The notes below the pieces were generated by a model, which worked only from the letters and a program-made list of their open reading frames with translations, was not told where the DNA came from and ran no database searches. Shown piece by piece: positions 33,638 through 55,782 of a stretch of DNA of 64,000 nucleotides (the stretch's first letter is position 1; every line of letters begins with the position of its first letter). Origin of the DNA: Arcuatula senhousia (Eukaryota > Mollusca > Bivalvia > Mytilida > Mytilidae); assembly GCA_963971305.1 (NCBI GenBank), contig CAXARO010001692.1:1-64000 (forward strand), in the 5' to 3' direction. The position numbers and the translations under genes are program-made.

Positions 33638-33932
33638 CTGCAAAAGAGAGATTATTAACAAAATTGTTAATTATCCATATATCATTACACAGTTAAAAAA
33701 AAAAAAAAAAAAATATTGTGGTTTTTAGTCTTCTTAAAATATATTGGTACGCAATATCAACTATATTTTATTTACATTTTAAAACAAACAACTTTTTTTT
33801 TTATGCCATATAATCTTTAACATTATTGTTAATTCATTTATTCAACAAACATATATTACACTCATTTTTATTATTATTATTATTTTTTAATTTTTTATTT
33901 TTTTATTATTTTTTTTTTTATATATTTTTTTT
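33638..33932 (-). other. Intron/intergenic AT-rich tract
   Basis: Between the pol tail stop and the TatD exon: homopolymer A and T runs and a polypyrimidine tract leading to the acceptor at 33,638-33,650. No coding. Confidence 0.55.
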
Positions 33933-34388: not shown

Positions 34389-35586
34389 CTCTTTCTCCTT
34401 CTTTGTATTTGATAAAGCACAGGGGTAATTACTCGAGTGACGATATATGATTGTATTTCAGGATAATGAGAAGACAACAAAACAAACACCGCTTTTATTG
34501 TTTAGTTAAAAGCCAGGGTAACCGGCAAATAACTGACATATAAATTCTATTTAATAGATCCAGTGTATGCCAGAAAACCCGGCAAACCACTGAACCTAAA
34601 GAAGTTTAAATTTTATTTATTTAATCTCGATGTAACAAAACAAAAACCGTTTATGCTTCAGTTTAGGCCAGGGCAACCGGCCAGTATCTGAAGTTTTTAC
34701 TCTATTACACTAATGCCAGAGTAACCGGCAAGTGGTTAGAGAAATGGTTCTAAATTTTTATTATTATTTTCTGATTATTCTTTAATGGTTAAATTGGTCT
34801 ACAGCAATGACTATTTACTCAAACAGTCACTACTGCAATCGCCACGGTGTTCTCACCATGCCAATTACAACCAATCAATCTCGAATGTTTAGTATTTTCA
34901 GTTAAATTTTAAAGTTTACAATTAAACAATAGGTTTTATCTTTGTCAATTTAACTAGATTTTACTTTACAAAACAATTCTCAAACAACCGAAGGCTACAC
35001 AGTTTCTTTTTATTGTTATTTTGAATTTATGACTGAGATAGACAGGCCAGCACCGCCGTCGCTAATCTATCACAGCCTGTCCTTAACAATGTTTCTAAAG
35101 TTTTAATTTGTATAATAGACCAAAGAAAGAAAATATAATTTTTCTGTGTTGTTATGTATGCGACAGTTTTACAGACTAAGCCAGGGTAACCGGCAAAGAC
35201 TATTCAGGAGCCTAACATTCCCTACTCCTAACTGCCAAGGGTGAAAGTCAAAGATTTAATAGCCAAATGTATGCCAAGCTATTTTCTACTAAGCATAGAA
35301 AATATAGTACTTGAAATGTACAAAAGATTTTAACACCCCAAATATTTAGACTAGAAAAGACTTTCAACCAAGTTCATATAAAATGAACACATGAAATGGG
35401 TTTGGGACTTTTTAATCAACTGTGCGAACTGTGCAGTCTATAATGAAATGTTGTACATGCATGCAAATTGCGTATTTCTTTATTTCTCAAAATGAAAACT
35501 AAATTTATAATGAAAAATATACTCTATGAAATCAATATGAAAATCACTTCACTGACAAAAATATTCAGTGAAATGACAAAATAAAT
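34389..35586 (-). other. Non-coding leader of the LTR element with recurring 15-bp motif
   Basis: No ORF. GCCAGGGTAACCGGC or close variants occur at 34,512-34,526, 34,569-34,583, 34,667-34,681, 34,715-34,729 and 35,180-35,194. The same motif is at 31,890-31,904 and inside the TatD exon at 32,811-32,825. At the right edge, 35,549-35,586 is an inverted repeat (CACTGA...TCAGTG) also found twice at 52,831-52,922. Confidence 0.7.
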
Positions 35587-35626
35587 GGGCTATTCCAGAA
35601 ATAGTCTGTACCCCCCCTGTGGAAGA
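35587..35626 (+). repeat. Left terminal inverted repeat
   Basis: Perfect reverse complement of 52,752-52,791. Divergence begins at 35,627. Confidence 0.95.
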
Positions 35627-37781
35627 GGATGGTAATAAGAAAAAAGATCCATGGATTTTTCTTTACTGACATGAAAAATATTTTCTGGAATTTTCATTTT
35701 CATTAGGTGGAAGATACAAGGACAATGGAAATATTCCATGGAATAAACATATCATTGAAATTAAAACTTGGAGAAATTTATGGCAGTGCAAGAAAAATCC
35801 ATGGAAATTTTAATGCATACTCCCCGATCATGTTCTCTGTCTATAATTAATGACTGTGGAAGATAACCAATCTTGAAAAAAAAATCCATGGAAAATTGGT
35901 GGTCATCATGAAATAATGTCTGGATTTCCAGTATTTATGGGAATAAATGAATTGGTTGCACCTTCATAGTTAAATACATGCATGTGCATGTTTATACCTT
36001 TTTCTTGATATTTTTTCGTAATTAAGGGGCAAAAATTCTGATGTTGAATATATTAATGTTCATCTTCTTTATTTGTATAAACTACCAAGACAAATTTCAG
36101 TTCTGTACTCTTTGGTTTGCTGAATTAGTGTATAAATGTTCTTGAAAACTTAACAATATGATTCAGAGAAATCAATTACACCCCACCAACTGCCAAAATT
36201 ACAATGTGAAATTATACGAGTGTGATGGACTAACAAAAAATGTCTGTCCTTAGAAAAGTTTTGCTGTTTACACAAGGAAGGCATCAATAACAAGTAATTC
36301 AAGTTGGAAATATTCATTTTAAAATTTGTAACAAGTCAGGCATTATTAAATTTGATACTATATGAAAGATACTTGTTGTGTCAAACAATATACTATCAGT
36401 CTCTATAATTCATATTTACATTCAAAATAGATCATAAACACATAATCAAAATCAAAAATGAAAATAAATCAAAAGATTTTTCCTTTACAATCATCAAACA
36501 AAAATGAAATGAAGTTATTACAACAATGTCAGCTTAATAAAAAATCTTTTCTCTTTAATATGCCAATATTATCAACTATATGAATATGATTAAGTAGGTG
36601 TAGGTAGATAAATATTTTTTTTATAAAAACCTACATTTCAAGTAATTTCTAGAAGAAAAAAACTCATGGTTCAAAACCTTAAAATCATAATAAAATTAAT
36701 TTTCTTTTTGGTTTTATATATTTTGAGTAGGGACAATTTTGTTTAACAAACCAGACATATTCCTGACTTAAACACCTGTACATCATGAAAATATCTGATA
36801 TTTTTTTTACAAAACCAGTAAAAAATATGGGACATAATGTTCTTAATTGTATCAATTCAATATAGGGGGGGGGGGGCAAATTGCCACTATGGGTGGGCTT
36901 TAAAAACTTGTATAAGCTTAGTGAAAATGCTGTTAGTTGAAAAATTAAATTCTATTGGTGATTCCCCTTTCAAAGAAGTGCCTCCCATGTCCCATTTATG
37001 TTTTGCTGGAACAGCCCTTTATTGAAAATTTTTAGCTTGGAATTGATCATGAAATATTTTTCATTCTGAAGCTGGGAAATTATTTCATGTTTGCTTACTC
37101 TGACATTTTAACGGCAAGTGTTAAATTTAAATTATAAATTGTCTTTTACTGAGTGTTTACTATCCAAAAAAATTACAAACTTGTTCATATATATATCATA
37201 CATAATGCTGGTATTTCAAATCATGTACAATATTAATAAGTAAGTATAGGTACATGTTTAATATATCACTCACTCTAAGCAAAATAAAACAGTCTTCGAA
37301 ATTGGCCACAGGCCACAAGCCATGGCTAGTGAAAAGGCTTGAGGGCCTGTAGAAATGGCAACAACAAGCCAATGTTGTCTATACAAAATTTTTCAATAAT
37401 AAGTTGTCGGGCCTGTGAACCAAAATTTATAGCGCAAAGACTGTAAAAGTAATAAAACACAATAAAAAGTAAGTAACACCTCAATCTATTCTAGTATTGA
37501 TTCCTAATTATTACATATGTACATGTATATCTTTTTTTTTTCCAAATCTCATCAATATCAAAAGTTTTGAAGTTTGACAGTCTATGAAACTTATTAAGCT
37601 ACCAAAATAAAATAAAAATCTGTTACTTCCCTAAAATCCAATTATGAATTATATTATCAAAACACAGCTGGACATCTTTATGAGTTCATTTATAATCACA
37701 TGCCAGAATTTACATGCTTCAGAGATTTGATGATGAGAATAGAGATAAGAGCATACATGTATATAAAAATTAATCATTAAG
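35627..37781. other. Left non-coding arm with subterminal repeats
   Basis: No gene. The first 350 bp carry repeated short motifs: TGGAAGATA at about 35,708 and 35,850; ATCCATGGA-type palindromes at about 35,649, 35,731, 35,800 and 35,887; and GGATTTCCAGTAT at about 35,924. The same motifs recur inward of the right end. They are candidates for transposase binding. A G10 run is at 36,866. The short ORFs 36,685-36,879 and 36,837-37,025 are not supported. Confidence 0.6.
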
Positions 37782-40700
37782 CTATTTAGAATAATAAGGA
37801 GAAGATACAAATTTAATCTTTCTTGATGCATATGAGTGTGAAAAATCAAGTTCGTATATGCAACCAGGTTCTTTCAAATATTCTAATTCAATGACATCGA
37901 ATGAGGCGTCATATGATACAATTCTAGCATTGTACCATCCTACTTTCCAGTTAGATGTGCCAATATCCTCTCGATTCCAAAACACCTTGACCTTTGCTCC
38001 AGGTTCCTTGCACTGCTGATAATGATCTGCATCAGTTTTGTAGGTCAAATCATCTTCAATATCTCTGTTCATATCAATTTCTGTTTGTGATCTTATTAAA
38101 CTATCAAGCCATTCAAATAATGGATTGAACACTTCATCCAAATTGTCTTGACTTACAAAATCTGGTACTGGCACTACAGTTTTTGTATTGGAAATGTTGG
38201 TATGCTTGCGCTGTCGATATATTTTCTCACTAAAATTGTGATTTCGTTTTTGCCAAATAATTACTAGAACAGCAGCTTCAGCAATTTTGATAAGCTTGCT
38301 TATGATCATATTCAGGAAGATATATGAACGCTTATGTCTTAGAAGGAAAACTTTCATTATCAGCTCATCTTTAGTCCCACTGAAGTTGATATTGTGAAAT
38401 TTTAAAATGCTCTTTAAGTAAAAAACACTGAAGTTTGACAAACCATTAAGATCTGCTGGAATTCCAGAGAGATCGCCTTCATACTGTAAAAATTCAGGTG
38501 GTTGGATTCCTGTTACATTGGATAAACTTGTTATTAAATCAGTTTTAGTGTTGTTGCTGGTTATTGGAATCTTTTTTTCTTTACAGACTTCTTGGAGTTC
38601 AACGACGGTTCTTTTAAATAAAGGATGATGACACCATCTTTCTCTAATTTCATCATTTTCATATGTTTTCATGTTGATCTTTGATATTTTTGACATTTCA
38701 TCCTTTACCTGATCTTTTGTTATCCATATAAATAAAGACAGTGCTGTTAAAACTGACTCAGGAACATCATCTGAAATCTGACTGATGTAATTAAGTAACC
38801 GTTTTGGCATGAACATTTCTGGATTGTCCCATTCTCCATACGGCATCACTCTTCTCTGTTCAAAAGGCATGTAATGAAGTTCCCCTGAGCTTGATATCCA
38901 TCTTATATAGTCTGGTAAAGGTTCTCTGTGAAAGCGCTCTGTATTAGTTAAATTATGGCTTGAATAGATTGTTGCCTGGTATTCTGTCAACCACGATGTT
39001 CGTATGTCATCATTCTTTGAGTTGCACAAATGGTTGTAATCAGAGATGTATGACGAGGAGAAGTTAAGATCCACTTTCCAGGCATTCTGAATTTCATCTG
39101 ATAAATTTCCTGGTGAAACTGAATACTCCTCGTCACACTCATCTTTGCCTTGTTCTGACAGCCTCAGGAAATTTCGAAGTCTCTCCTCATCATTAAACAA
39201 AAAGTCTTCTTTAACCCCACGGAAACAAAAGAAACTGTTGCTTCCAAACTTAGCAGTTTTAATGCAGTTGATGACCTCTTCTGCCATGAGCTCCATATTT
39301 TCAAAATGCTGCTTGCTACCAGGTCTGGCATCTTTATTTTTAAAAATTTCAGATGTTCTAAATGGTCCATGGCGGCTCAGAACCATATTTTCAGCAGCAT
39401 GGGGTCTCTCAGCAGGGTTATCTTTTGAGTTTAGTTTTTCGAAAGAGATTTGGGTCGCAACATCAAGATCTAAAAAGCATACCAATCGTACTAGGAGCAT
39501 TCGCACAAGACAGCTTGCTGGTGCCTCAGATGGACCATTGTCTACGACAAATATCCAATTTTTTTTTAGAGTGCCTGTTGAGTCATTTCGAAAAATGTAG
39601 TCCAGTGCAGGATTTGCCAGAAGAAGAAAAAGTTCATTGAAACATCGGAAAACAGTTTCTGGTTCAAAAAATGACAAATTGATAAGAGTAACCGGTTGAC
39701 CTGTTCTTGTAATATTCATTACTGTTAAATTGTCAGACTTGATGGCATGTTCTGATATTGTTTTTAGAAAGAGGTGTGTCATTGGAGTGCAAGCATTCGT
39801 GCGCGACTGATCAAATTGATGGTCTAGTCTAGATTCATCCTTCCAACTTTTCCCTATATTCTGAACAGGATCAATATCTGCACATACGATTCCCTTAGCA
39901 TCTTTAGCATCGACCATAAAATCATCTCCATTTGCTGCTGCAGTTTCAAGTAAGTAATTAACATTTGAACGACAATAGTGAGCATTTATTTTTTCTTCAA
40001 GCATGCCAACCCTTGGTAATTTTTTAAAAGATATATTTGCATTAACATTTTCTCCAGCATGGTGTCTCATTGCTTGTTTTGTATTCCTTCTAAAGTTCTG
40101 TGTGTATGTATAGCAGGTGGAAAGTGCTATATTTGGTATTTTGGAAGAAGCTGCAGCTAATAATATCTCCCTTGCTTTTGGCATTGTCAATGCTAAATTT
40201 GGGTCTTTATATCTAGTCTCTTCAGTAAGACGAGGATGAATTTTTGATCCTTTTCCAAATGCCAATTCAATCACTTCGGCAAGTTGGGGAAACTTATCGG
40301 CATATTTTTCTCTTCCTGCACCAGCTGCTCTAGTTTTGAATGCCTTTGTTTTATACTTTGATATCAGTCTACAGTGAAGTGAATGCTGCTGTTTATTGGT
40401 CATGTCATTACGAACAGGTAATAAATTATGCTTCAACTCTGAAAATTTCCTTAACTTCACTGGAACTTCATCACGGGATCTTTGAAGAGTTTGCTTACTT
40501 TTAGTGCCTGGTAATCTACTGACAGAATTGATTGAAAAAACTTTCACTAAAATGGATCTTATAATACTTCGGTCAAGTTCTGTGTCAACAAAGTCCATGT
40601 AATCTTTCATGTTGTCCAATGATTCTTCAAGGTTTCTGTTTGCAGCTTGTTGTAAGTTTACTGAATTGGCCATGTTATTAACAAAGGTTTGTATGTCCCC

Positions 40701-41537
40701 TTTACGGTATTCCATTATATAACCTGTACCATTAATGTAAATTTGCATAACTGGTAGATATTTTGATAACGTTTCTAAAAGTTCAATTGATCTTTTTCTT
40801 ATCCCAGATGGGTTGCTTCCTTTATACTGACTTTTTGAATTTAAAAGTATGGTACATAATTCTTGTGTTTTTACTAGTGGACCATTGGCAATAAGGTATT
40901 CCCCACAGGCAACAATTGCAAATAAATGAGCTCTTTTTTCTTTCTTAACTTCAGATAACTGTTTCTTCCTTAGGGATGGTAAGATGCTTGCCAATGTCTT
41001 GAACCTGTTTTCATTGCTTCTTTCTACACTAACATAAATATTGTCTGCATCTGTCTGCACTGGATTCATGGATCGAACAACATCTCTTCTCTCATTGCTA
41101 AGCGCCAAAAGTCCCATTTTCTTGTAAAAGTTTTCAGTTACAATTTCATACTGTTGCTCAAACACATCTGTATAGGCATCTTCATTAGTATTAGGTTGAA
41201 TGTTGGAATCATCAGAATCAAGATGTACATTTGTTTGTGAATCATTGTCAATATCTGTGCCATCATTAGAGCCATGAGGTTCATTTATTTGTGTATCTTT
41301 ATGGCAAAGAGGTTCATTTGTTTGTGTATTCATGACATCTTCTGGGCCATGAGGTTTAAGTGTGTGTGCATTGATGTCAATATCTGTACCATCACTAGAG
41401 TTCGGATGTTCATTTGTTTGTGAATCTTTGCTGATGTCTGTATCCAAGTCAAGATAAATAGTTGGTCTAGTGTTGGCTGTGTATGTGTTGTCATGATGTT
41501 CATTGGCCGTACTTTTGGAATCATTGATTTTTCTCTG
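37782..41537 (-). CDS. Putative D-D-E transposase with SAP-like and Tudor/SH3-like domains (exon 3)
   Basis: Predicted to cut and join the TIR ends. The open frame runs to 41,591, but a splice acceptor (catttttcag) ends at 41,538, so the exon starts at 41,537, phase 0. In the frame counted from 41,591: Thr/Asn/Asp-rich repeats (about 50-130); a central RNase-H-like region with ADIDP (D572), VVDNGPSE (D684) and NPAERPHAAEN (E728), spacing 112 and 44 residues, as expected for D-D-E; two SAP-like helix-turn segments (about 996-1025 and 1053-1085); a C-terminal Tudor/SH3-like segment with KVKVFWNRED and WKVGWYNARIV (about 1196-1262). 1,251 residues from this exon. Joins the OTU exon upstream. I recall similar anonymous proteins from cnidarians and molluscs but cannot name the superfamily. 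Intact. Confidence 0.82.
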   Translation of the reverse strand, partial: QRKINDSKSTANEHHDNTYTANTRPTIYLDLDTDISKDSQTNEHPNSSDGTDIDINAHTLKPHGPEDVMNTQTNEPLCHKDTQINEPHGSNDGTDIDNDSQTNVHLDSDDSNIQPNTNEDAYTDVFEQQYEIVTENFYKKMGLLALSNERRDVVRSMNPVQTDADNIYVSVERSNENRFKTLASILPSLRKKQLSEVKKEKRAHLFAIVACGEYLIANGPLVKTQELCTILLNSKSQYKGSNPSGIRKRSIELLETLSKYLPVMQIYINGTGYIMEYRKGDIQTFVNNMANSVNLQQAANRNLEESLDNMKDYMDFVDTELDRSIIRSILVKVFSINSVSRLPGTKSKQTLQRSRDEVPVKLRKFSELKHNLLPVRNDMTNKQQHSLHCRLISKYKTKAFKTRAAGAGREKYADKFPQLAEVIELAFGKGSKIHPRLTEETRYKDPNLALTMPKAREILLAAASSKIPNIALSTCYTYTQNFRRNTKQAMRHHAGENVNANISFKKLPRVGMLEEKINAHYCRSNVNYLLETAAANGDDFMVDAKDAKGIVCADIDPVQNIGKSWKDESRLDHQFDQSRTNACTPMTHLFLKTISEHAIKSDNLTVMNITRTGQPVTLINLSFFEPETVFRCFNELFLLLANPALDYIFRNDSTGTLKKNWIFVVDNGPSEAPASCLVRMLLVRLVCFLDLDVATQISFEKLNSKDNPAERPHAAENMVLSRHGPFRTSEIFKNKDARPGSKQHFENMELMAEEVINCIKTAKFGSNSFFCFRGVKEDFLFNDEERLRNFLRLSEQGKDECDEEYSVSPGNLSDEIQNAWKVDLNFSSSYISDYNHLCNSKNDDIRTSWLTEYQATIYSSHNLTNTERFHREPLPDYIRWISSSGELHYMPFEQRRVMPYGEWDNPEMFMPKRLLNYISQISDDVPESVLTALSLFIWITKDQVKDEMSKISKINMKTYENDEIRERWCHHPLFKRTVVELQEVCKEKKIPITSNNTKTDLITSLSNVTGIQPPEFLQYEGDLSGIPADLNGLSNFSVFYLKSILKFHNINFSGTKDELIMKVFLLRHKRSYIFLNMIISKLIKIAEAAVLVIIWQKRNHNFSEKIYRQRKHTNISNTKTVVPVPDFVSQDNLDEVFNPLFEWLDSLIRSQTEIDMNRDIEDDLTYKTDADHYQQCKEPGAKVKVFWNREDIGTSNWKVGWYNARIVSYDASFDVIELEYLKEPGCIYELDFSHSYASRKIKFVSSPYYSK

Positions 41538-43556
41538 CTGAAAAATGAAAATAATAGTATTTTTTAATTCTAATGACAAAATTGCTGACACAATTGAAAA
41601 CTAAAATATATTGCATATGAATCACTTCAAGCTGTAAGAAACATTTGAAGCAAACATTTTGCTTAGCATACCATGGTGTGTCATACACATTTAAAGTTTG
41701 TTTTTGTCTGCGAAACGATGTCTCCCCCATTTCCCCCAAAATTTCTTGGTTCAAAAGGTCAACAACTCGCACAAAAATTGGAGGATCATAATTTCCTGGT
41801 AATATGCACAACTACATATGGTGTCCTTCCTAACAAATGTTTCCTTGAAATCAGTTCAGTAGTTTTAGAGGAGTTGCATTGACAAACTTTGTGACGGACA
41901 GACCGACGGATAGGGCATAAACAATTTCCCCATCAAAGTGGGGTAGACATTACAATATAGGTGATAAGAACCATGTCAGAATGGACTTGAAGAAAACACT
42001 ATACCCTAACCACTAGACACCAAAGGCCTGACACTGAGGTAATACTATATAAAAATCTGTCATTTTCTTTCAAAAATAACATGAATTTGCACAAAAATTT
42101 AATATGCATATCATGGCATGCAACTTAACAACTGTACATAATTTCAGAACTGTATTGTTAATAGTTTTTGAGTTTTAGTGTTCACAAAGTCCAATTCTCA
42201 AAATCTGTGATTTATGATAAAATGAATTCTTTTTCCAAAAATATTTCACATAACTGCAAGAAAATTTAAAATGCAAACCAGGACATGCTATTAAGCAACT
42301 GTACAAAATTTCATAACTGTGTTGTTAATAGTTTATGAGTTTTAGTGTTCACAAGAATTGTTGACGAAGGACAGAAGAACGGACGGATAGACAGACGGAC
42401 AAAGTGAAAACTATAGGGCGTCTAATTATAATTACTTTGATAAACATGTAGTATCTTGAGAGAGATATATTGATATTTCCTCATATTACAAAATTATTTT
42501 CAGTTATTTTTTTAATTGCAAGCCATTTTTTAGCCAGATTTGTGGACTTCACAGATTTTTCTTATCAATACTATTATTTTTCCTTGATAAATCTATATTT
42601 CAAACCATAACAACTAGTACTAGGAAGTGACTATATGCAAGGCAGTCAAAGGCCCCATGGGACTGACATTAATTAACTTTCATTATAAAGCAATTGCCCA
42701 TTAATCCATCCAGATTTTTCAGAATTATATCATCTGATGTGGAACTTTAAAGAAAATTCAAATTATGCACAGAAAAAAATACCTATTCACTTATATTGAC
42801 AAGGGCGATAATTAAAAAAAAAACTTAAAAATCAAATTTTAACTGATTTTGGTGATGCTCTTGGCTGTATATTTAAGCTCAAGTCATTATACCGTACAAT
42901 TAGTAAAAATATTACTTGTCATTAAGGCAAAAATAAAGTATATGTGTTTCTGGTTTTGCTTGAAAAATAATAGGGTCAGTAAGTAGGTATTATATTTTAT
43001 TTTTTTCAAATTTTTTACCTCAAGTTAATGGGGAGCAGATTTCAATTTTAATAGCGCTTAAGCAAAAATGGCACTAAAAAAGGTCTGGGTTGGCACCAAA
43101 GACTAGGGACGGTAAGGAAACCAGAAACACACATATTTTTTCATTTGGCCTAAGGTTTTCTAAAAAATTTGTCAAAGATCATTTTAAAACTGAGGAAATA
43201 TTGGAATAAGTTGTCTGTAATCACATAAATTTACATTGTTATACTTCTTCCGATTTCAGAGTTTGACAAAAGGTTTGCTTTGACTTTTTGAAACAAACAA
43301 AAATTTTCAAAAACATAGACTTGTAAAAAGACTTATGGTTCATTAAAATTATAAAACAATTGTTCTTTTATAATCACACATGGGCTTTACACATACATTT
43401 GTACATTTACATGGTCAGATGCAACAAAGTCATATAAAACATTTGTATCCATGAAAATGGATAATAAGGCAAAACATTTCAACAAATTTAGTCTTTGAAG
43501 TCTTTTCAAACACTAATACATGATATATATTCTTAAAAAGATTTGCTATATCTTAC
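41538..43556 (-). other. Intron 2 of the OTU-transposase gene, with repeats
   Basis: Donor GTAAGA at 43,556-43,551 and acceptor CAG at 41,538. It holds a dispersed bivalve-type repeat at 41,690-41,935 ending in GACGGACAGACCGACGG, and two divergent units of about 180 bp (42,075-42,370, sharing TTAATAGTTT and GAGTTTTAGTGTTCACAA) followed by GGACGGATAGACAGACGGAC. No gene. Confidence 0.7.
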
Positions 43557-44354
43557 CTTGGGCTTGCTTGGAATGAAAGAAGTAAAATAATCCCCAAGCG
43601 TTGCTTTCCTTCTATTAGGTTGATCCTGGAACTCAGTTGAAATACAGGCCACAAAGTGATTTGGCATCCACCATTTGTTGTGAAATGAATCCAAGTTTAA
43701 GTTTGTCCACATAATTCTTAGCTTTTGTGTAGACAGTCGGACCCTAGGATCAATTCTCTTGTGAAAAAGATGTCTATCTCGTTGCGTTCCATTAAGGTTT
43801 GGGTATATCGAATAAACAGTACAACCAAGTACACTGCACATTGCCATTAAGTTCCACATTTCACCCCACGATGAATTCTTTGTGAATCTAAGTATACAAC
43901 GGTCAAATACTGCCTCCACTCCTTCGACCAATCTAAGATTATCTGATTGGGCAAGCCTTTCAGTAAACTGAGCATACAGTCTGTTGCTTGAACTCCCCAT
44001 ATACCAGTCTTTATTTAGAACCATTTCAGCAACTACTCGTGCCCGTAGTTCTTTATGACACTCTTCAGTCCCAAACACATACATTGACCCTGTTCTACAC
44101 AAGCAGTTTCCATCTCCATATATAGGTGTTGGTGTAAATCCAGTACAGAGTTCATCATCTTTGGGATATAATTCTAAAGAGTTAAAATCAATTTTCTGAG
44201 TGCTTCGAATTTGAGATGCCAATGGAAGAGGGAAATTCACAAAATTTTTCATTTCTGATTGAATCACCTCCTTTAACTTAACCAGTCCAATATCAGCTGC
44301 CCTCTCCATTTTCAATAGAACATCTTTAAAGTACTGTTTTCTGCATTCAAGATT
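43557..44354 (-). CDS. OTU-like cysteine protease domain, exon 2 of the transposase gene
   Basis: OTU domains cleave ubiquitin-like modifiers. The 266-codon exon begins after a good acceptor (caactttgtttcag) at 44,355 and ends AAG|GTAAGA at 43,557, both phase 0. The catalytic triad is present: YGDGNCLCR supplies Asp and Cys (residues 85 and 88 of the joined protein), and WWMPNHFVACI supplies His (237). The whole resembles vertnin-type OTU proteins. If the intron is not used, the frame stops 24 bases later at 43,533, which fits read-through into an intron. Joined to exon 3 it would give about 1,521 residues. An ATG at 44,378 could serve as an alternative start for a stand-alone OTU protein. 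Confidence 0.8.
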
Positions 44355-46693
44355 CTGAAACAAAGTTGGTTCATACATCAAAAACTGATCATCTACTACT
44401 CAAGTGTATGATTTAAATGATAATTGAACAAAATTATTGAAATGTGAGGCTCCTTCTGAAATTGCTCACATGGCAAAAACAATACAAGTTGTCCTGTAAA
44501 ATGATTTATTATGTAAAGATGGATCTTAGCTGAGCATTTTCTATTTTTACATTTTATATTGCTCCCGCCTTACTGCCCTTCCTTAAAGGTAATTTTTATG
44601 GGCCTTGACCAAGAACTTATTATAACCAAAGTGTTACCGTGTACAGACAGACAAACAAATTGAGGCACAGACCAAAAAATAACAGTAAAATTTTGCACAA
44701 TCATCTTTGTAACAAAAATGAAAATGTTAATTTGCATCTACTATTTAAAATTTGTTTGATTTTTTTTTTAATTCTCAGAGCAAATCCTTGTAGGTCCTCA
44801 ATGGATCTATGTGACGTAATCTAAAAGTACACCCCATACTTTAAGATTTGATATAAAATATTGGGGGAGGGGTTGTACATGTATCATATAGTATTTATCC
44901 ATACCTCTGTTATATTATGTATATTTATTTTTAACGGCTTAACATTGATTAATTTAATGATGTTGTGTCTTAAAATCAGTACTGTAAATATCAATGAGAA
45001 ATGGACAATATTTATTAGCAAAACCACAATTTAAGGAGTGAAAGTGGAAAGATTATAGCAATTTATCATAATACTATAAAAGAAAAAAAAATCATTCTCA
45101 GTAGTGACTGAGTGTCAGTACAAATATGATCATATTAATCATACAATGTTTGCTGTAGAAAAAAATTTAAAAATTTAATAGATTATCCCGTTTTAAGTTT
45201 ATTTGCCTACTTTGCAGGCGTTCTTGTGTAAATTAGTATTGTATGGGATTTGTTGTTTTTAACAATTTAAAGATGATATTATTATTTTTTATTTTTTATA
45301 GGAGTATTCTATTGAGTATAGCGATATAATTGTTTCTAATGATGTTGTAAATATTGCATATAAAAAAATGACTATCATCTTCTATTTCATTTATAGTCTA
45401 TTCTGGTTCTGTTTATGCATGTTAAATTGTGATATCAACCTCTTCCTTAGCGCTTATTCTTAATATTGCAAGAGTTAAATTGACAAAGGTCTAATATGAG
45501 ACAATGGAAAGTTAAATAAGAAAGATAGCTTATTTTCTAAATTTTGAAGGGTCACATCTTCAATTCTTCTTTTAAGAAATTGGATTTCAATAATTGGAAT
45601 GTTTATGTGTACTGTTAACTATCCTATTTTTTCTTTTAAGAATTTGATAAAGAGTTTGGCAAATTGCAGCAGGATCATTTAAAAGGCAAATTGGAATGAC
45701 TAAAGTGTCAAAAAGAATTTCCTGTAATCTACATGGGTTATATAAGCCAAATATCTTTTTTTTATTTTGTAAAGAGCTTTTGGGCCCTTTTTTCATTAAC
45801 ACAGAGTTCCAGGTACTTTTAGATTTTCTGTATATTCAAAGTAATATGCCTAAATAGATATAAGAAGTTACTGTTAAACTACATATGATTGACTTCACTT
45901 CCAATATTCAAAATAATGAAATATCTTTGCTTAATTAACAGTTTGTAAAAGATTCTACATAAACTTTCAATTTGCATACTGCTAGGGAAAAATCATTTAT
46001 TGATCAAGACTGGGTCCTGCTGAGTGGCCACACAGAAGATAGGGTGTTTATTGTGACTGGCATGTACATAAATTTGTCTTAGCAGTATTTTGTTAATTAG
46101 TCACACATGCCACATGCAACTCTGGCCATCTGCAATATTGGTTATTAAGGCACAGTGGGTCACTTTATCTGGAGGTGCCTTCAGCTCTTTATAATTAATA
46201 CCCAAATATTCATTTAATGTTCAAAATTTAAATTTTCATATTTATACATGTTTATTCAATGCAAAATGAATGTATATTTATAAAATTTATTATGAAAACG
46301 TTATAGAATTTTCAAAATTACATGCTCCCTAAAATTGATTTTGACATAAAATTAATTGCACTATTGTTCTCAGGTACATGTGAAATCTGGTATTTAGGTT
46401 TAACAGGCATCCCACCACAAGTTTTCACCATATCCATTATCAAGTGCAGCTGCATGGTCTAATAGTAAATAATTGTGGTTAGATTCTTTATCTGAAATAT
46501 TTATAATTTTAGGACCCAAGCTAATAATTTGATACCCAATTGTAATTATCAAGTCAGACCTATTCCATATTTCCTTTAATAGTCTCATAGAAGCAGAGTC
46601 TTTCTTCGATAAATTAAATATTTTGTTTCTCTTTTTTGTATATAATAGTGACATATGACGAACAACAGAAGAGACATAATGAATAAAGAACAA

Positions 46694-46925
46694 TTATAAT
46701 ATCAAGCAGTTTCTACTATCAAAAGCAAATTTTATAAAATTACACAATTTTATAACTAACTTTTTGGAATTACAAGACAATAAATATCTAAGTTTAGTCA
46801 TATTTGGCCATGAAAAGAAAATATTTAGGTGAAAACTTAAGTCTAATTGCTCTATAAGCAGGACATACAAGTATGAAATGATATTCATTTTCAATATGAC
46901 ATATTACAACAAATCTTAGTGCCAG
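46694..46925 (-). pseudogene. LINE 3'-end remnant
   Basis: On the minus strand one frame reads ICHIENEYHFILVCPAYRAI, the cysteine-histidine zinc-ribbon typical of the end of mollusc LINE ORFs (compare IEDEYHFILNC at about 1.73 kb and VEDELHYFSECP at 30.18 kb). Stops follow within 30 codons. Confidence 0.6.
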
Positions 46926-47439
46926 TTTCTACTTTTACCTTTGATTTAAGTAAGAAAATATGAGTTATAACAACAATCTGCATATTCTTCAAAATTATGT
47001 AACTTACTTGAAAATAAAGTTATCTTAATCTGAATCAAAAGCTAATTGTGGGTTTTCTGTCTTAGTTTAGATCTTTTTTACCTTGGATTAAGATTTATTA
47101 TAGCAATTTTTTTTCTAAAACAACCATCAAAACCTAAATGAATTGATAATAGTTGCAAAAATAAAGAAAACATGTTTTAATGCTAGCACAGCTTTAAACT
47201 TGTATATCTATAGCATTAGTTTCTGTTATTTTATAAAAGTAGAAATTTAAAGACTAGACAGCAACAAATCCAAAGTTGAGGGGATTATAAATAGAATGGT
47301 TTTGGGGGTTATCACTTACCAGTTGGAACCCCTCCTTTCTTTTGATAGTTTGTGATTTTATGTAAAATTTTCGCAAAATCATCAAATTATTACCTGGAAT
47401 CCATTATTTGTAAAATTCTGGATGGGGTCTTTACATTTA

Positions 47440-47712
47440 GGGAGCGACCATTTGATTTTTAGGGGGGTGGCTATGATGAAACTTGAAATAAAAAGGCAGG
47501 ATGGCAAAAATCCAGAAATAAAAAGTCAGAACAGTGCTTTGAATTTAAAGAAAGGCAGGATGGTAGTTTGGCTGAAAAATTATAGTAGTTTTAAAAATAA
47601 ACAAATTGACACATGCTGGAGCGCAAAATACATCCAGGCTTGTTTATTTGAAAAATATAGACAGAATGAAGAAAATATCCATACCCCCCCTAAAAATTAA
47701 TTGGTTGCTCCC
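47440..47712. mobile_element. 273-bp Harbinger-like MITE
   Basis: Ends GGGAGCGACCATTTGATTTT and its near-complement (GGTTGCTCCC at 47,703-47,712) form imperfect TIRs of about 27 bp including G-runs. TTA flanks both sides (47,437-47,439; 47,713-47,715), the TWA-type 3-bp target duplication typical of Harbinger elements. The ORF 47,422-47,700 is incidental. It lies 43 bases inside the predicted first intron of the transposase gene. Confidence 0.75.
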
Positions 47713-47754
47713 TTATCAAGGAGGTTTTTCAAACTAACCATCAGATATACTTAC

Positions 47755-47766
47755 CATTTTTTCCAT
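47755..47766 (-). CDS. Predicted first coding exon of the OTU-transposase gene
   Basis: ATG at 47,766 in a strong context (A at -3, G at +4), four codons (MEKM), then a textbook donor GTAAGT (47,754-47,749). Phase 0 matches the acceptor at 44,355. Chosen because it is the only good ATG-donor pair near the divergent promoter. Transcript evidence would decide. Confidence 0.5.
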
Positions 47767-48041
47767 GATTTCTTCCCTTTATCTTTCTCTTTCTTGGGTC
47801 TTTTTTGGTAATCAAAAATAACACACACAATATATTCTGTGACAAACTGAGATACATGTAAACTCCTACAGATAGATATGAACTAATCAAAAGGCTATCC
47901 AGCATCCTGCTCAGCATGAATATCTGGTTGTAGTCACATGACCTTTTTGTGGACTCATTCTTGGCATTTGCAGTTTAGATCTCCAATACATAATACATTA
48001 CTTGAACTTCACAGTCAGAAATTACATACATTTTTGTAAAT
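47767..48041. promoter_or_regulatory. Shared bidirectional promoter region
   Basis: Only 275 bp separate the start codons of the two divergent genes of the transposon. GTCACATGAC (47,931-47,940) contains an M-box/E-box-like TCACATGA. No clear TATA box. Location is inferred from gene layout. Confidence 0.5.
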
Positions 48042-50994
48042 ATGGATGCCAGAGATTTTGACAAATTTTTTTCCGACTTTGGTTTGGAAAGCATGAAAGA
48101 TCTTTTTGTGGAAAATGGGTTTGAAACTGTATTGGCTCTTCAAGAAGTGTCTGATGAAGATCTGAAGGAAATAGGAGTAAGAGCTATGGGAAAGAGAAGA
48201 CAGTTCCTTGGTGCTGTGAAGAAAATTGCTGTGAAAAACACAAGTACAAAGGGTAAGATATTTTATATTGAAGACTTAAAATGTGTTATCAAATAGTTTA
48301 GAAATAGCAAGTCATTAAACCATACTTTAGAAAACTTGAAATCTTAATTATAAAGTTATCAGGAAGAGTTCTGTCAGCATTAAAACTTAATTAGTCTTTC
48401 CAAAATAAAGGACAGATTGGCAAAAAATAAGAAATATTTGTGAAAGGTCATTACTGTTTAAATTTTAGACCTCTATTCAATACATTTTGAATGAATGTTT
48501 GAAAGAGCATTTGTAGGCATATTCATGTACAGATGGACAAAACAAAGTCAAAACTGTTGGACTTAGCATTTTTGATACAAGCTTTTACATGTTTTAATGT
48601 TTTATGTGTGTTTTTATCAATTACACCCAAAAATAGTTTTTTTCTGATATTTTGTTATTTAAAAGATTTCTTTTTATGCACTTCTAAAACTGTTTTTGAA
48701 ATCTTTAAGCTTTTTAAAATTTCTCAAAAACATACATATGCTTCATAAATGTTTAATTGTTTTTCAGGTGATGTAAATGTTAGTTTGCCTGCAACACCTT
48801 CAGGTGAGCCTGAAATGTTGGCTACAGAGTTTGAGAAAGATGAAGAGCTACCCAAACTTGATACCAGACATGGGGACAAAGAACCTGTTTCAAAACGAAA
48901 ATTAGATTTGGACGGTATGTAAATTAAAAGAAAATAATCTTTTATAAGAAATTAAAAAGTGTCATTTGTTTCATAAATGAATTGTAAACACTTAACATGC
49001 TTAAAGAGTGAAGACACTTTCTTTGATATGTCAATTATTTACAGGAAAAATCATTGGTAAAACTTAATACTATATAAATGAAACTTCAAACTGCATTGCA
49101 TCAACTATTTTTAACAGCAAAATAACAACAATATAATACTTATAAAAACATATTTGTATTGAATGATTTTAATTTTAGGAAATGACAGTGATGGTAGTAC
49201 ACCATCTAAACATGCAAAGAAACAAGAAACTCAGTCTGGGTAAGTAGTTTATATATTTATAAACAGATTATCATGATTATCATTAAAAATATCTACATAT
49301 TGGTACAAGCCTAACTAAATGCCCATAGTTCCTTTCATGTTTTATGGAGCTTTCTATATGAAAAGATTGATTTCATTGATAAGAATTTTTATGTCTAGAA
49401 AACTGACTGTTACATGTATTCCTGCTGAGCACACTAATCAGATTATCATAAAATGAGAAAACCATCTGGATCAAATCAAGTGATTTAAGAATTTGTCAAT
49501 ACAATGCTTTCTTCTTGTGTAAAGAGGTGGTTATCATGGTTATTTATTTATTTCTCAATTATATGCTTTATACTGAATTTTTGGAAATTATAAGGCTGTC
49601 ATTTCACGCACAAAAAGTTCAAATTAAGATAATTTCACTTTAATTAGGATTTTTCTCCCAACTTTAGGATGAAGTTTAGACTGCTAAAGCTTAGTTAAGC
49701 ATTTATTCTGTCAAATCTTATTGTTCAAACTTTTAGTTTTTAACAGAACCAAATTTTTACTTTACATAATCAGGAATTTACAATTCAGAAAATTTAAATT
49801 AAAGTCAAATCAAGACAATATGATATTTATTGTGTTGACATTTTTCAATAGTTTTAAAAAGATGGTGGTATTGTTAAATACATTTTTAATATTGGTGAAC
49901 TAAACATTGCTCTATGGTCTATCTTCCAAACACCATGTGAACTTGACCTACCAACCCTTATGTCTTAAGGAACCCTTCAATAAACTCAGCAGTGAAAGTT
50001 CTATGAAAATCTATCCTAACATTTTTGCCTTGATTTTCAGTTTCATTAATTATATTGTGCACTACAGCATTAGCATATTTAAATTATATTAGAATCATAA
50101 TAATGGGTCTAGAAAATGTACACAACATTACCAATTGATGTTAAATAATTTAAAGATTATAGATATTTCGGACATTCGTATGTCCTTCATCAGTATAATA
50201 AACAATTTTTTTTTAGAATCATAATAATAATATACATGTAATAGATTTCTTTTCATTGATTAAAATCATCATTCAATTAAAGTATATTATGTGCTATTAT
50301 AAACAATAAAAAATTAAAATATTTCTTTTTTTTTAGTCTTCATAAATGGTTTAAATCACCATTCAATCCAGAGAAGATACTGAAGTCGAAGAATATCCAC
50401 TTGTACAGTGACACTGAAATTAAGCGTGCTTATGGATTGAGAAAAAGGAAGATGGAATTCGTTAATGCCAAACTTTTAAGCCTTATTGAAGATGCCGATG
50501 TAAGAGGGAAAAATAAGGCTACAATAATTGGGATGGCCGAGGTAGCCTGGGACCATTACAATGCAACAGAGGCCAAGATAGACATTATTGAAGTTTCAGC
50601 TCTCATTAAATCATTAGAGGCAAGAGGTAAAACTTTTAATGAGAAGCAAACAAAAACAATCAAAGCTGGAGTTGAGAGAGTCAACAGAGCCCAATTTGAT
50701 ATCAAATCACAATTAAGACTGATAAAGGAATATAAAGAAAGTAAAGAAAAAGCCACAGAGATAGAAAAGGCAGAGGATGAATTGGTTTGTCTACATCATG
50801 AATTGCAGAAGGCAACAGATGCTTTAAGGAAGTCATGCTGTGTAAAGATTTCAACCCTACAACAAATGTTGAAAACAGATTCAAAAGAAGCAGAGGAAAA
50901 AGAGCAAGTTGAAATTCAGGAAGAAGAGTACCTGTCAGATGACAGTATAGTCAATGACATTAAATGTGATGATGAGAATGAAACAAATGCATGA
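48042..50994 (+). CDS. SAM-domain/coiled-coil protein, four exons, 358 aa
   Basis: Exons 48,042-48,252, 48,768-48,914, 49,179-49,239 and 50,337-50,994. All junctions are GT-AG (donors GTAAGA, GTATGT, GTAAGT; acceptors after ttttcag, aattttag, ttttttttag), and phases 1, 1, 2 keep one open frame of 1,077 nt ending in TGA. Residues 3-68 form a SAM domain (FDKFFSDFGL..MKDLF, then LQEVSDEDLKEIGVRAMGKR, then FLGAVKKI), a protein-protein or nucleic-acid interaction module. The middle is polar. Residues 253-321 are a strong coiled coil (IKSQLRLIKEYKESKEKATE onward), then an acidic tail. Divergent from the transposase gene inside the same TIR element, so probably an accessory factor for transposition or multimerisation. 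Function unknown. Confidence 0.85.
50105..50212 (-). mobile_element. 108-bp hammerhead-carrying insertion in intron 3
   Basis: TTAGAATCATAATAAT flanks it on both sides (50,089-50,104 and 50,213-50,228), a 16-bp direct repeat that looks like a target-site duplication. The insert contains a hammerhead-like motif and no ORF. Probably a very short copy from a Penelope-like element end or a retrozyme. Confidence 0.6.
50156..50199 (-). ncRNA. Hammerhead-like ribozyme motif (Penelope-type layout)
   Basis: Minus strand: stem I 50,199-50,194 pairs fully with 50,161-50,156; core CTGATGA at 50,093 + 100 (50,193-50,187); one extra A; stem II of six pairs GGACAT/ATGTCC (50,185-50,180 and 50,075 + 100, i.e. 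50,175-50,170); GAAA at 50,169-50,166; a two-base stem III (UA); then UC. The extra A and near-absent stem III match hammerheads described in Penelope-like elements. Lies in an intron, antisense to the SAM gene. Confidence 0.65.
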
Positions 50995-52751
50995 TTAAAA
51001 ACTTTATCATGATGATATTATGTCGTATGGAATATCTTTTATTCAAAGATTTCATATTAGAAGTCACACATGCAAATGGAAGTGAATTAAAGGCAATTTG
51101 ATATATAGACCTACCATATTAGTTTTCAACATATGCATGCATAATAACAAAGAGCTGTATCTCTAATAAAATGAGACAATTTCATACAATTGCAGTGTTA
51201 TCGTTCTATTGTGCTATTTCATTGGGATAAATAAATTATGAAAGAAAGATACAAGTACATGGAACTTGATTTGTTACCGAGCTGTTTAAAAGCATTTTTA
51301 GTATCTACTCATGCAATAAAAATTATAAACAGGAGTCTTAGCTTTTAGTTTATAAAATTACTTTTTATATTGAAAAGAAAATTTCATCCACATTTGACTC
51401 TAGAGCAGAATACACATGATACAATGACTTCTAGGTTGATGGGTTTTTTTGTGCAATATTACATTACATAGGTTACATAAGTACATGAACCTAAAACTCT
51501 GTGGTTACATTGGTAGTCTAAGATTCAAAACTGGCAAAAATAAATGTCAAAATTTATCAAACAAGAAAAAAACATCTAACTCGTGGCATTTGGACAACCC
51601 TGTTTGATCCAACAAAGAAAAAGTTAATAGAAGTACAAATAGATTTGTGTACTTTTAAATTGAGATATGCAAGAAGCAAAGAGGCACCAATGTGGCATTC
51701 CGAAGCCAAATGTCAAAAAGATCGAAGGCAGAAAATAGTTAAACACCAAACGGAATAAAGCATGAACAAACAAGAAACACAAAAACATTGTGAACTCAAG
51801 TTGTAACGAGAGTGAACTCGGGTGCTCCAGATGAGTAAGCAGTTCCTGTCTAGTGCAACTGTTAAAAACACCTGTTAAAAACTACTGCAAAAATAGTCCA
51901 CACAAATATTATTATAACTTGGGATCTACAGGTTCACACATACTGTTCATGACTTGCTGATTTATAAAAGATATACTTTCTTGCCTTCAGGAGTCCCTTA
52001 TGGTCAATAAACAATGCTAAACATCAATTCAAAATCAAAGTCCTTCATACAGAAAATGTACATGTTGGTTAAAGGAGCCTTAATAGTTCATTTGGTTGGT
52101 CCTGATATTAAGTTTTAAGTCTTAAGATTAAATAATGTAATAGAAAACAATGAGATGTGGAATAAGTGTACACGACACAGCCCACAATTAAACCGCAATT
52201 TAGAAAAACCACAATGGACAACTGCCAGCAGCCTTCGACAAGGCTCTTTGGCACTGCTCGGGGTTCTGCAATTGGCCCATGGTTTAAATAAAATGCATAT
52301 TAACTCAAATTAGCCATGCAAATTTTATATAACGGTTTATTTCTTCCCCTATGAAATATCTTCCGAAGTCATGATTAAATGCATTATTTACGGAATAAAG
52401 CTGGATATTATTTAATAATATGTCAAATCATGTAGTTATGAAATATTATCCATAAAATAATTTCCCCTTAAAACCCAGGGACCTGGAAGAAATATCACAG
52501 GTTATTGAATATCACAACCAGAAGAAATTATCTCCTACATTTACACTGGAAATTTTGTGAAAGCAACAAATTTTTTCTGGATACTGTCAGTGGTATTTTT
52601 GAAAATTTAATGGAAATCTCAAGGTGAACACCAAAAATCGCATGGATTTTTTTTTTACTTGCATTAAAATATACTGGATTTTTTATATTAATTGTGATTT
52701 TTTCCTGGAAATATAAAATTTTGGACTGATTTTTTTTCTGGAAATCCAGTA
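50995..52751. other. Right non-coding arm of the transposon
   Basis: No gene. A dispersed repeat copy sits at 52,137-52,310 (GGAATAAGTGTACACGACAC and GTTCTGCAATTGGCCCATGG). The last 300 bp contain repeated CTGGA/TCCAG motifs (TTCTGGAAATCCAGTATC at 52,738-52,754, TACTGGATTTT, CCTGGAAATA) like those next to the left end. Confidence 0.6.
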
Positions 52752-52791
52752 TCTTCCACAGGGGGGGTACAGACTATTTCTGGAATAGCCC
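52752..52791 (-). repeat. Right terminal inverted repeat
   Basis: Perfect 40-bp reverse complement of the left end, including the run of seven G. Confidence 0.95.
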
Positions 52792-53045
52792 AATATGCAT
52801 GTAAACAAGTCAGACAAAATCTCAAAATTCTTATCACTGACTAAAAATAATCAGTGAAATAATATATATATCAAAATTTCACCTCACTGACAACAATATT
52901 CAGTGAAATGACTAAATAAATAAGGTCAGGTCCACGAAAAATATGACAACATAACTCGCGAACAATGTGACAAAAGCCCGCGAAAATTTTCCCGTGCAAC
53001 TCGTGATGTCAAATATTAAAGAAAATTTTAACACCTGACACCAAT
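52792..53045 (-). other. 5' leader of the LTR element with primer-binding site
   Basis: On the minus strand TGGTGTCAG (53,043-53,035) starts two bases after the 5' LTR. It would pair with a tRNA 3' end CTGACACCA, as in tRNA-Leu-primed elements. Two palindromic CACTGA...TCAGTG-type units lie at 52,831-52,862 and 52,883-52,922, with a third across the transposon at 35,549-35,586. Confidence 0.7.
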
Positions 53046-53278
53046 ATTGCAGTATTGACCGTCGGGGCTAAAGTATGACTCTATAGTTAATACCTGACAT
53101 AATCCCTTGAGTTGCGGGGTATAAATATACGGTTGACAACAAATGTAGGGCTTCAGTCGTATGCACGTCCTTTCAGTTTGGAATCTGGATCTGTTGTGTC
53201 TTCCTTCGGGCAACCAGTCGAGAGGTCACTTCCGGTTTGTCTAATTTTAGTATCGCCCATTCTGGGAACACTTCCACA
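53046..53278 (-). repeat. 5' LTR (minus-strand orientation)
   Basis: No difference from 31,457-31,689 is visible over 233 bp. Followed on the minus strand by the primer-binding site and preceded by the target duplication cagtt (53,279-53,283). Confidence 0.92.
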
Positions 53279-53904
53279 CAGTTAAGAATGTCCCATACAG
53301 GAGATAGACGCTTACCAAAACACATTGATCGCATATTTGTAAATTTGATGGATCTAATGGCTGAATTAAGAGAATAATGGTTTTGAATTTGTTGACGTCT
53401 GGTCCAGATTTTGGGAAAATATTTTAAACTCTTTTTAAAAAAGACATTTGTTGACTTTTTCATAACTGATAAGTTTCGCTGATTGCATATATCTTTGAGA
53501 TCTAACGTAACACAAGGTTTAAGGCTCTACGATAGTTGTACAAAGTTATTTTGGGGACTATGTTGGAACTATTCTGTTCTTAACTAGAACTACTTTCTTA
53601 TATGTGCACACCGGATGCCTTAACTAGGTCCCCTACATCAACAGACGCTGGATTTTTTGTTTCATGACGTCACCATGTATGCCGGAGGAATCCTGACGTG
53701 TTACAAATGTGATTCTTTCAACGTCCGCACATGGCCAATTTCAATTCAAACTATAAACACGAAAATCTGTTAAGAAACTATAAGAGAGACGTAACCTCCA
53801 AGCTGTAAAAACGCTACTAAAAGCCTTCCTTACCACGATTCAAATCAAATATTTGTGATTTATTAAAGCACTATATTCGACGAGCAGGGTACCCCAGGTT
53901 TGAG
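53279..53904 (+). repeat. Large duplication, copy B (right part)
   Basis: Continues copy B after the LTR element. Matches 15,188-15,833 with few changes (for example a short deletion near 53,372 and another near 53,879). Homology stops at 53,904. No gene. Confidence 0.88.
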
Positions 53905-54275: not shown

Positions 54276-54752
54276 CTACCCGGTTCCAACATGGCTCGGC
54301 GGGTTTGCCATTAAAAAAACCCGATCCTGGTCTGTTGGTATCAGCCCAGGCGAGGGAAGACCAGATCGCATCCATCGGAACATCAAAACACAAACCGGTT
54401 CACTGGATTTTGTTATCTGGTTGAATGCTATTGATTGCTTTTGGGTAATAGCATTGCTCAATGACGTCATCAATATTGTCAAAATGGCGACGATAACATG
54501 GCTTGGTGAAATTGACCTGTCGTACTTTATACTTGTCGAACCAGTTGAAAAAAGAGCTTGTACGATTCCACATGTAAATAACTGGATGTGCGTCATAAAT
54601 ATGGTAATACACACTGGTGAATCGGTATTAGACCGAAGAAGTGTCTTGTTCCATGCTGCAAACATAGCACTGAATGACCACCATAACACCAAAATGGCGA
54701 TCGCGATTGGGCCCTGGATGATGTGTGTCCCATTAAACTTGTTCTTATCCAT
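54276..54752 (-). pseudogene. Orphan exon similar to SLC35/TPT-type transporter N-terminus
   Basis: Minus-strand ATG at 54,752 opens a hydrophobic reading frame with four likely membrane segments: AIAILVLWWSFSAMFAAWNK, then ITIFMTHIQLFTCGIVQ, then HVIVAILTILMTSLSNA, then a segment with FNQITKSSEPVCVLM. The WNK-TLL start and the K-x-x-EPV motif recall nucleotide-sugar/triose-phosphate translocators of the Golgi or ER. The tail after EPVCVLMFRW (about 54,375) does not look like a transporter and ends at a stop, so it may be intron read-through. No further exons are visible downstream. Either a first exon of a gene whose rest lies elsewhere or a fragment. Confidence 0.5.
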
Positions 54753-54779
54753 TATTAAGATATTGAAATAGCAATTCAC

Positions 54780-55782
54780 ATTTACACAGTTTTCCTTTAT
54801 AAGTTTTATTCCATATGTCGCACAACATCTGTTTTATACAACACAACAAATCGATAGCTTATATTTTTTTGTAAATGTCAGTGAAGAAGACATTGGCTTA
54901 AAGCTCGCAAAGACTCGTAGATAAGAAAATATCCAAGTGTTGCCATGGAACCCAAATACGATATTCAAAGTATATACAAAGAATAAGACGGGATAATTTG
55001 AATCGCAAGAACTAGATGAAATTTGTTCCCGCCGTTTTTTTTCTTTATATGTTCCTTTTGCTGCTCTGCAATATTAACTGACCCAAACAAATATCAAGTT
55101 ATCTGTGAAATTTTTTTTTATATTAGAATAAATACAAAGGTTATGTTTCTCCTATTTTAGTGTTTTTCAACAAGAAATTTCTCATCAAAGTCGTAATAAA
55201 TACGGGATTCTTTCTTTCTAATGAGTGCAGATGCGGGTTTGTCATAAAGTTAATGTTATTTTATTCTTAACTGGATTTGACCTACTATACATTCATTTGA
55301 TTATTTACCATGGGAAGGGTGTGTCCAACACGCAGAAAACATTATCCTTCCGGAACACTGATTTACACCCATTTTGATGCGTGAGTTTGGATCAGATATA
55401 ATATATGGTTTTTATGGTTGTAGAACTAAAAGTCTTTGCCCTTGATAGTTAATTTGAGCGTTGTTTGGGTAAGCAAGAGAAAAAACACACAATTTGGTTT
55501 TCCAATTTTGTGATTTCAAACGTTCTATGGTATTATAACACCTAGTAAGGGGTAAGGTTTTGGATTAAAAAAATCGAGTAAGAAATATTTTCTGCAAAAA
55601 GTATTTATTTTTAAAGATCTCGACAAAATAATAGTCTCTTCCGCCAAATACTTTTTTCATTAAAAAGCCGATTCAAAATATCAAGGAAACTTCCAGGCCT
55701 AAAGGAGTATGTTCGAAAAGGGCCAAAACGGCCCTTAATTTAAAATTTGAGACAGTGTAGACAACTTGCTGCTAGAATTGTT
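54780..55782. other. No gene recognised
   Basis: AT-rich sequence without convincing ORFs or repeats known from elsewhere in the window. Confidence 0.5.

Follow-up and report, generated by a model that had tools for sequence, protein, structure and literature searches.

In the parts of the literature available to us, Zator is a eukaryotic relative of the bacterial ISAzo13/TP36 transposases, and both Zator and ISAzo13 elements make 3-bp target duplications (PMC10045372, PMC7386202); Zator elements are also reported from bivalves. A protease joined to a transposase is known from Ginger1, in which, as far as the accessible sections of that report go, a Gypsy-type integrase carries a C-terminal protease of the OTU or, in some families, the Ulp1 type, in elements of 2.6-7 kb with TGT ends and 4-bp CCGG-type duplications (PMC2836005). 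The same sections discuss a possible role in transposition for these OTU and Ulp1 domains, perhaps one exerted via repair factors (PMC2836005). Here we describe an element of 17,205 bp from the bivalve Arcuatula senhousia, lying in a stretch of 64,000 nucleotides (assembly GCA_963971305.1, contig CAXARO010001692.1), which we refer to in its entirety as the window. The element carries two divergent genes, one (gene A) encoding a protein that combines OTU, DDE (aspartate-aspartate-glutamate) and SAP regions, and the other (gene B) a protein with a SAM domain. We consider it, with a probability of roughly 0.8, to be a real and apparently autonomous cut-and-paste DDE transposon whose catalytic core and ends either descend from one subclade of ISAzo13/TP36 (Pfam PF07592) or go back to a common ancestor with it.

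The boundaries of the element are defined by an inverted-repeat scan of positions 35000-53500, which returned arms at 35586-35626 and 52752-52792 that are 41 nt long and 100% complementary; the second pair listed was 35 nt at 74%; among internal pairs, none listed was better than 29 nt at 90%. Only one choice of boundary yields a duplication, placing the element at 35587-52791 with ends that start GGGCTATTCC and AAT at each flank. The 41-nt perfect repeat therefore comprises a 40-nt terminal inverted repeat (TIR) with AAT at each flank, in agreement with the perfect 40-bp ends and flanking AAT of an earlier note on this DNA, and a 3-bp duplication matched at one copy is weak evidence when taken alone.

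35587..35626, + strand: left TIR, 40 nt, beginning GGGCTATTCCAGAAATAG, 100% complementary to the right arm
52752..52791, - strand: right TIR, 40 nt, inverted-repeat match to the left arm
35584..35586, no strand: target duplication AAT, left copy, by flank comparison
52792..52794, no strand: target duplication AAT, right copy, by flank comparison
35627..35986, no strand: left subterminal region, containing TCCATGGA four times, by word count
52391..52751, no strand: right subterminal region with three ATTTCCAG sites, by word count

Subterminal words were chosen by eye and by 8-mer count. TCCATGGA occurs four times in the left 400 bp, never in the right 400 bp or the interior, and once outside the element, while ATTTCCAG occurs once in the left 400 bp, three times in the right 400 bp, never in the interior and twice outside. 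These sites are possible candidates for transposase binding, binding itself being a guess from the word positions. As TCCATGGA clusters at the left end only and the words were picked by eye, no single clear subterminal repeat is common to both ends, and a repeat at both ends was rejected since all TCCATGGA sites near the element ends lie at the left. A 16-bp TIR word found at 17 loci in viral contigs was also rejected as chance, the TIR continuing in none of the flanks examined, and the papers listed by a search of the open literature with TIR words were off topic by title.

Gene A has relatives well beyond this locus. Protein searches scored the 7992 candidates with the most words in common, so that all counts of relatives are lower bounds, and with residues 350-900 of exon 3 as query at least 83 related proteins were found. 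Alignment A1 holds 60 of these 83 with the window protein (61 rows), and alignment A2 holds 68 with the window protein (69 rows) and contains more fragments. The three exons of gene A are joined by predicted splicing at GT..AG introns into a protein of 1521 aa with zero internal stops.

47755..47766, - strand: gene A exon 1, start codon, MEKM; predicted from splice-site match and frame
43557..44354, - strand: gene A exon 2, OTU-like cysteine protease fold (Pfam OTU, 4.9e-5; model score, predicted local distance difference test (pLDDT), 80.4)
37782..41537, - strand: gene A exon 3, covering the DDE transposase region, the SAP domain and the C-terminal region (1251-aa open frame)
39369..39920, - strand: RNase H-fold catalytic core, from the predicted structure
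39900..39902, - strand: catalytic D816 (exon 3 D546), invariant in the 61-row and 69-row alignments
39540..39542, - strand: catalytic D936 (exon 3 D666), invariant in 61 rows, at least 90% in 69 rows
39408..39410, - strand: catalytic E980 (exon 3 E710), 43 residues after D936, invariant in 61 rows, at least 90% in 69 rows
38355..38417, - strand: SAP domain (Pfam PF02037, 6.6e-6)

The OTU (4.9e-5, exon 2) and SAP (6.6e-6, exon 3) matches both exceed Pfam cut-offs. The OTU region of the spliced protein retains Cys88 and His237, and all 43 PDB matches to exon 2 at E of 0.001 or less are OTU proteases or complexes with one, among them the OTU enzymes VCPIP1 and DUBA. Structure prediction of the D-D-E region, which the earlier note had proposed, gave an RNase H fold. 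Exon 3 has no transposase-domain match in Pfam at E up to 1, a PDB sequence search with gene A returned two weak lipase rows alone (E 0.23 and 0.25), and structure comparison against BFVD gave no match with E below 0.001. A Tudor identity for the C-terminal piece, suggested by eye, was rejected in that Pfam gives no match.

Gene B is predicted to encode an open frame of 358 aa in four exons on the + strand, and its SAM_2 match is above the Pfam cut-off (E 1.1e-9 to 1.8e-9).

48042..48252, + strand: gene B exon 1, SAM domain (SAM_2, 1.1e-9)
48768..48914, + strand: gene B exon 2, splice model
49179..49239, + strand: gene B exon 3, splice model
50337..50994, + strand: gene B exon 4, splice model; kept in relatives, with a single weak Pfam match (E 0.16) and no family

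The domain assignments proposed from the letters alone, an OTU-DDE-SAP protein with a SAM partner, were thereby borne out, as was the description of two intact divergent genes. The identical TIRs and open frames would fit recent activity. The two start codons are only 275 bp apart, and it is therefore likely that one divergent promoter serves both genes. Gene B has fewer known relatives, three by sequence and at least five by profile, two of them from Mytilus edulis. A gene A-type protein (P0002) and a gene B-type protein (P0086) of M. edulis lie on contigs of identical size (3,264,085 bp), and the gene pair is therefore very probably linked there too. The first intron of gene A contains, close to the likely divergent promoter, an insertion of about 275 bp (47440-47712) resembling a miniature inverted-repeat transposable element (MITE), with 29-nt arms that are 90% complementary (GGGAGCGACC) and TTA at both flanks.

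The best matches to gene A among the candidates scored are two Mytilus proteins with 65 and 69% identity, and the eight relatives with organism names come from three Mytilus species and from the corals Paramuricea, Desmophyllum and Porites. Five clusters among the 83 each contain 180-229 member sequences by the database's own count. The spacing from the second D to the E is 43 in all 62 relatives in which both motifs were detected. Twelve of the 83 have an OTU-type cysteine motif on the N-terminal side of the core, many of the others being shorter predictions. Pfam scans of five long relatives gave a sub-cut-off OTU match in two and none in three; the database itself annotates OTU in P0076, and P0051, a named coral protein, has the cysteine motif yet lacks OTU in Pfam. 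One Porites relative is labelled Ulp1-like by its source, a label that Pfam did not confirm, and P0079 has a sub-threshold Tudor match (E 0.078). In P0017, P0051, P0057 and P0079 the core is preceded by long repeated or low-complexity linkers, and the linker of the window protein is short. Outside animals, pattern searches for the gene A core gave 67 matches in viral contigs and 40 in prokaryote genomes, of which none was confirmed.

The core motifs VDNG...SK.NP.ER are reminiscent of ISAzo13/TP36, and profile comparison points in the same direction. Plasmids and prokaryote loci (the best 80 of 512 confirmed) supplied the PF07592 proteins, 52 of the 80 loci being taken and 42 giving a usable frame. 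Identity to a Calothrix query splits the 80 loci in two, a near group at 43-86% and a far group at 26-31%, the near group being represented by 21 pieces from 18 of 19 loci and by three plasmid proteins. The Calothrix-type loci (L039-L057, L005, L007 and L008) have DNGPEN...YHSKYNP(V/I)ER motifs and occur alongside the main group, with several copies fragmented. The animal profile given to HHalign consisted of 67 of the 69 A2 rows, selected for length, and a further alignment, A6, held 11 of the 83 relatives with the window exon. Against the near group, HHalign gave probabilities of 92.2-95.6% with E of 6e-7 to 1e-8 (best 95.6%, E 1.3e-8). Control profiles remained low (IS630 1.0-2.6%, IS21 0.1-0.2%, reversed query at most 0.2%), and the IS630, IS21, IS5, IS66 and IS110 controls were all at background. 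With single sequences as targets, seven near-group members were within the top eight of 48 PF07592 proteins (best 91.0%), and nine of the 48 exceeded the best background, the controls reaching at most 1.8% for 19 transposases, 1.7% for 101 background open reading frames and 0.1% for one IS5 protein. In hmmsearch the best near-group protein scored E 2.7e-6 (for a nominal 100,000 targets), and all 25 matches listed belonged to the near group, from a set that also held 38 far-group, seven IS630 and seven IS21 proteins.

Several results are weaker or weigh against this kinship. Far-group proteins alone, representing the main ISAzo13 clade, gave only 0.5-0.7% in HHalign, and mixtures of near and far sequences gave 16.4, 36.7 and 69.1%. 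A first ISAzo13 profile of six sequences gave 57.5%, and 0.1% in the other alignment mode; once one overlong row had been cut, this profile gave 90.7% and then 91.2-93.1%. The reverse search was weaker, with a best E of 6.5e-4, and the window protein was absent among the 25 matches listed. The Pfam PF07592 model itself does not match exon 3 of gene A, with E allowed up to 1; the family members L005 and L009 match it at 2.5e-92 and 1.6e-137. Given that the near group matches and the far group does not, the PF07592 link is specific to a subclade, and on sequence comparison the kinship looks real, although distant and confined to that subclade.

The ends of PF07592 insertion sequences, which were examined independently of the protein, agree with the protein evidence in having AT-only 3-bp duplications and mostly GG(G/A) starts. 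We screened 54 loci, 53 of the 80 and one on a plasmid, for inverted ends bordered by the same 3 bp on either side. Twelve qualified, and in every one the duplication was TAA or TTA; four starting trinucleotides were seen, GGG in seven loci and GGA in three. Examples are TAA followed by GGGCTTGTAACAAAATAAAG (L116) and TAA followed by GGGCCGCGGCAAGAAATAAT (L041), to be compared with AAT followed by GGGCTATTCCAGAAATAGTC in the window element, which thus has the 3-bp duplication and GG(G/A) start of this group (AAT, then GGGCTA). The Calothrix-type near group and the window element are alike in core motifs, in AT-only 3-bp duplications and GG(G/A) ends, and in D-E spacing. This spacing is 43 here; of the proteins that could be measured, all 14 near-group pieces and 37 of 38 far-group proteins have 42. 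They differ in that ISAzo13/TP36 elements are bacterial and in most cases span some 1.3 kb from end to end (range 1.26-1.6 kb in 12 loci), and in that OTU, SAP and SAM were not seen in the two ISAzo13/TP36 proteins scanned.

These comparisons bear on how the element is to be named. The earlier note had held that it matched no known group; this fails for the catalytic core, which aligns with the PF07592 subclade, and for the ends, which are likewise TP36-like, and holds insofar as the Pfam PF07592 model is not called. The element cannot be filed under Pfam-defined PF07592, Ginger1, Harbinger, Tc1/mariner or CACTA. The absence of Polinton, Helitron and piggyBac features was upheld by a scan of four exon frames with zero such Pfam matches, and CACTA-type termini are absent from the ends. 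Its lineage is heavily modified and TP36/Zator-like, and represents either a branch that diverged within Zator or a sister superfamily so far undescribed. With slightly less than even odds, it may be an undescribed superfamily of giant animal DNA transposons, sister to Zator within TP36/ISAzo13, in which the transposase would be a deubiquitinase-DDE fusion and the SAM protein a polymer-forming helper. Among the papers listed in searches of the open-licence literature, none is recognisable from its title or the start of its abstract as an account of an OTU-DDE-SAP element with a SAM partner; this is a weak argument for novelty.

Zator is the nearest named eukaryotic group. Compared by description only, and in the parts of those descriptions available, it resembles the window element in being eukaryotic, in its 3-bp duplication (here AAT, at one copy) and in its kinship to ISAzo13/TP36 (PMC10045372, PMC7386202). 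That the element is plain Zator, a named superfamily with added domains rather than a new lineage, is thus possible, though short of probable: its core and ends are TP36-like and Zator is reported from bivalves, yet the comparison is one of descriptions, and their available portions mention neither giant size nor an OTU/SAP fusion nor a SAM partner. Zator resembles Pfam PF07592, and the lack of a match to that model in the window protein is a further point against this assignment.

It is rather unlikely that the element carries its OTU domain and SAM gene as host-captured passengers, dispensable for movement. Such a view would accommodate a SAM partner known from few relatives (at least five), and transposases of other families, Ginger1 for one, are also fused to OTU or Ulp1 domains in the accessible part of that work (PMC2836005). 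Against it, the OTU-type cysteine motif precedes the core in 12 of 83 relatives, including the coral protein P0051, in which Pfam finds no OTU; both genes are open here, and the M. edulis relatives lie on contigs of equal size. Ginger1 itself shares with the window element an OTU-type protease fused to the transposase, N-terminal here and C-terminal there, and differs, on the available description, in its TGT ends and 4-bp CCGG/CCGT duplication as opposed to GGG ends with AAT; a Gypsy-type integrase core was not found in the window element. Tc1/mariner elements such as Mos1 differ in their TA duplication, compared with AAT, and the IS630 profile gave 1.0-2.6%. PIF/Harbinger elements have 3-bp TWA duplications, G-rich ends and two genes, including a Myb-like partner. 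The general layout, together with the nested MITE-like piece with TTA flanks in intron 1, would suit such an element, but this is very improbable given that the gene A exons have no Harbinger-type Pfam match (exon 3, E up to 1), that AAT is not TWA, that the one IS5 control gave 0.1%, and that gene B has a SAM and not a Myb domain. A fixed host gene pair, for example a domesticated transposase, with chance inverted repeats is hardly credible, both genes being open and intron-bearing as it would predict, but framed by a 41-nt perfect inverted repeat that is not chance and belonging to a family with several divergent members within Mytilus, a reach to corals and five clusters of 180-229 sequences.

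Other features lie in the window outside the element. An open frame of 1139 aa at 26957-30376 (+) encodes both an endonuclease and a reverse transcriptase domain (RVT_1, 1.1e-31) and is an ORF2 (second open reading frame) of the long interspersed nuclear element (LINE) type. At 1216-1259 (+) a match to the Type I hammerhead ribozyme scores 35.2 bits (cut-off 34), and the frames beside it at 481-975 and 1262-1705 look by eye like a LINE remnant, the second without a significant Pfam match. A TatD-type DNase frame at 32046-33692 (-) (3.7e-37, with a sub-threshold zinc-finger match) lies some 1.9 kb to the left of the element, and a frame at 54276-54833 (-) with a sub-threshold triose-phosphate transporter match (2.1e-5) lies about 1.5 kb past the right end.

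If the element is a TP36-derived or TP36-related transposon, the gene A protein would be its transposase and would recognise the 40-bp inverted ends. Excision would depend on the D816/D936/E980 site, and insertion would occur with a 3-bp stagger, giving AAT in the window. The catalytic core and ends would have derived from, or descended together with, the bacterial ISAzo13/TP36 subclade, to which the animal lineage would have added an N-terminal OTU deubiquitinase-type domain, SAP and, here, a divergently transcribed SAM protein. By analogy with Ginger1, the OTU domain may deubiquitinate the transposase or repair factors. SAM domains commonly self-associate, and our guess is that the gene B protein forms oligomers and assists in synapsis or in entry to the nucleus, in the manner of a transposon helper or of the Myb-like partner of Harbinger.

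If the element does represent an undescribed superfamily sister to Zator, a small type of bacterial insertion sequence would have given rise to a 17-kb eukaryotic element with two genes, able to manipulate host ubiquitin. Confirmation would establish a lineage bridging bacterial ISAzo13-type elements and large multi-domain transposons of bivalves and corals. The open copy described here could then be used to ask why proteases of ubiquitin-like tags repeatedly join transposases, a question raised for Ginger1 in the available part of that report (PMC2836005), and whether assembly of the transposition complex is the work of a SAM-domain helper. In Mytilus coruscus, according to the portion of the source available, 20.07% consists of unknown repeats (PMC10294476), and if the lineage is confirmed its ends and protein profile would be usable for naming unclassified repeats of bivalves and corals.

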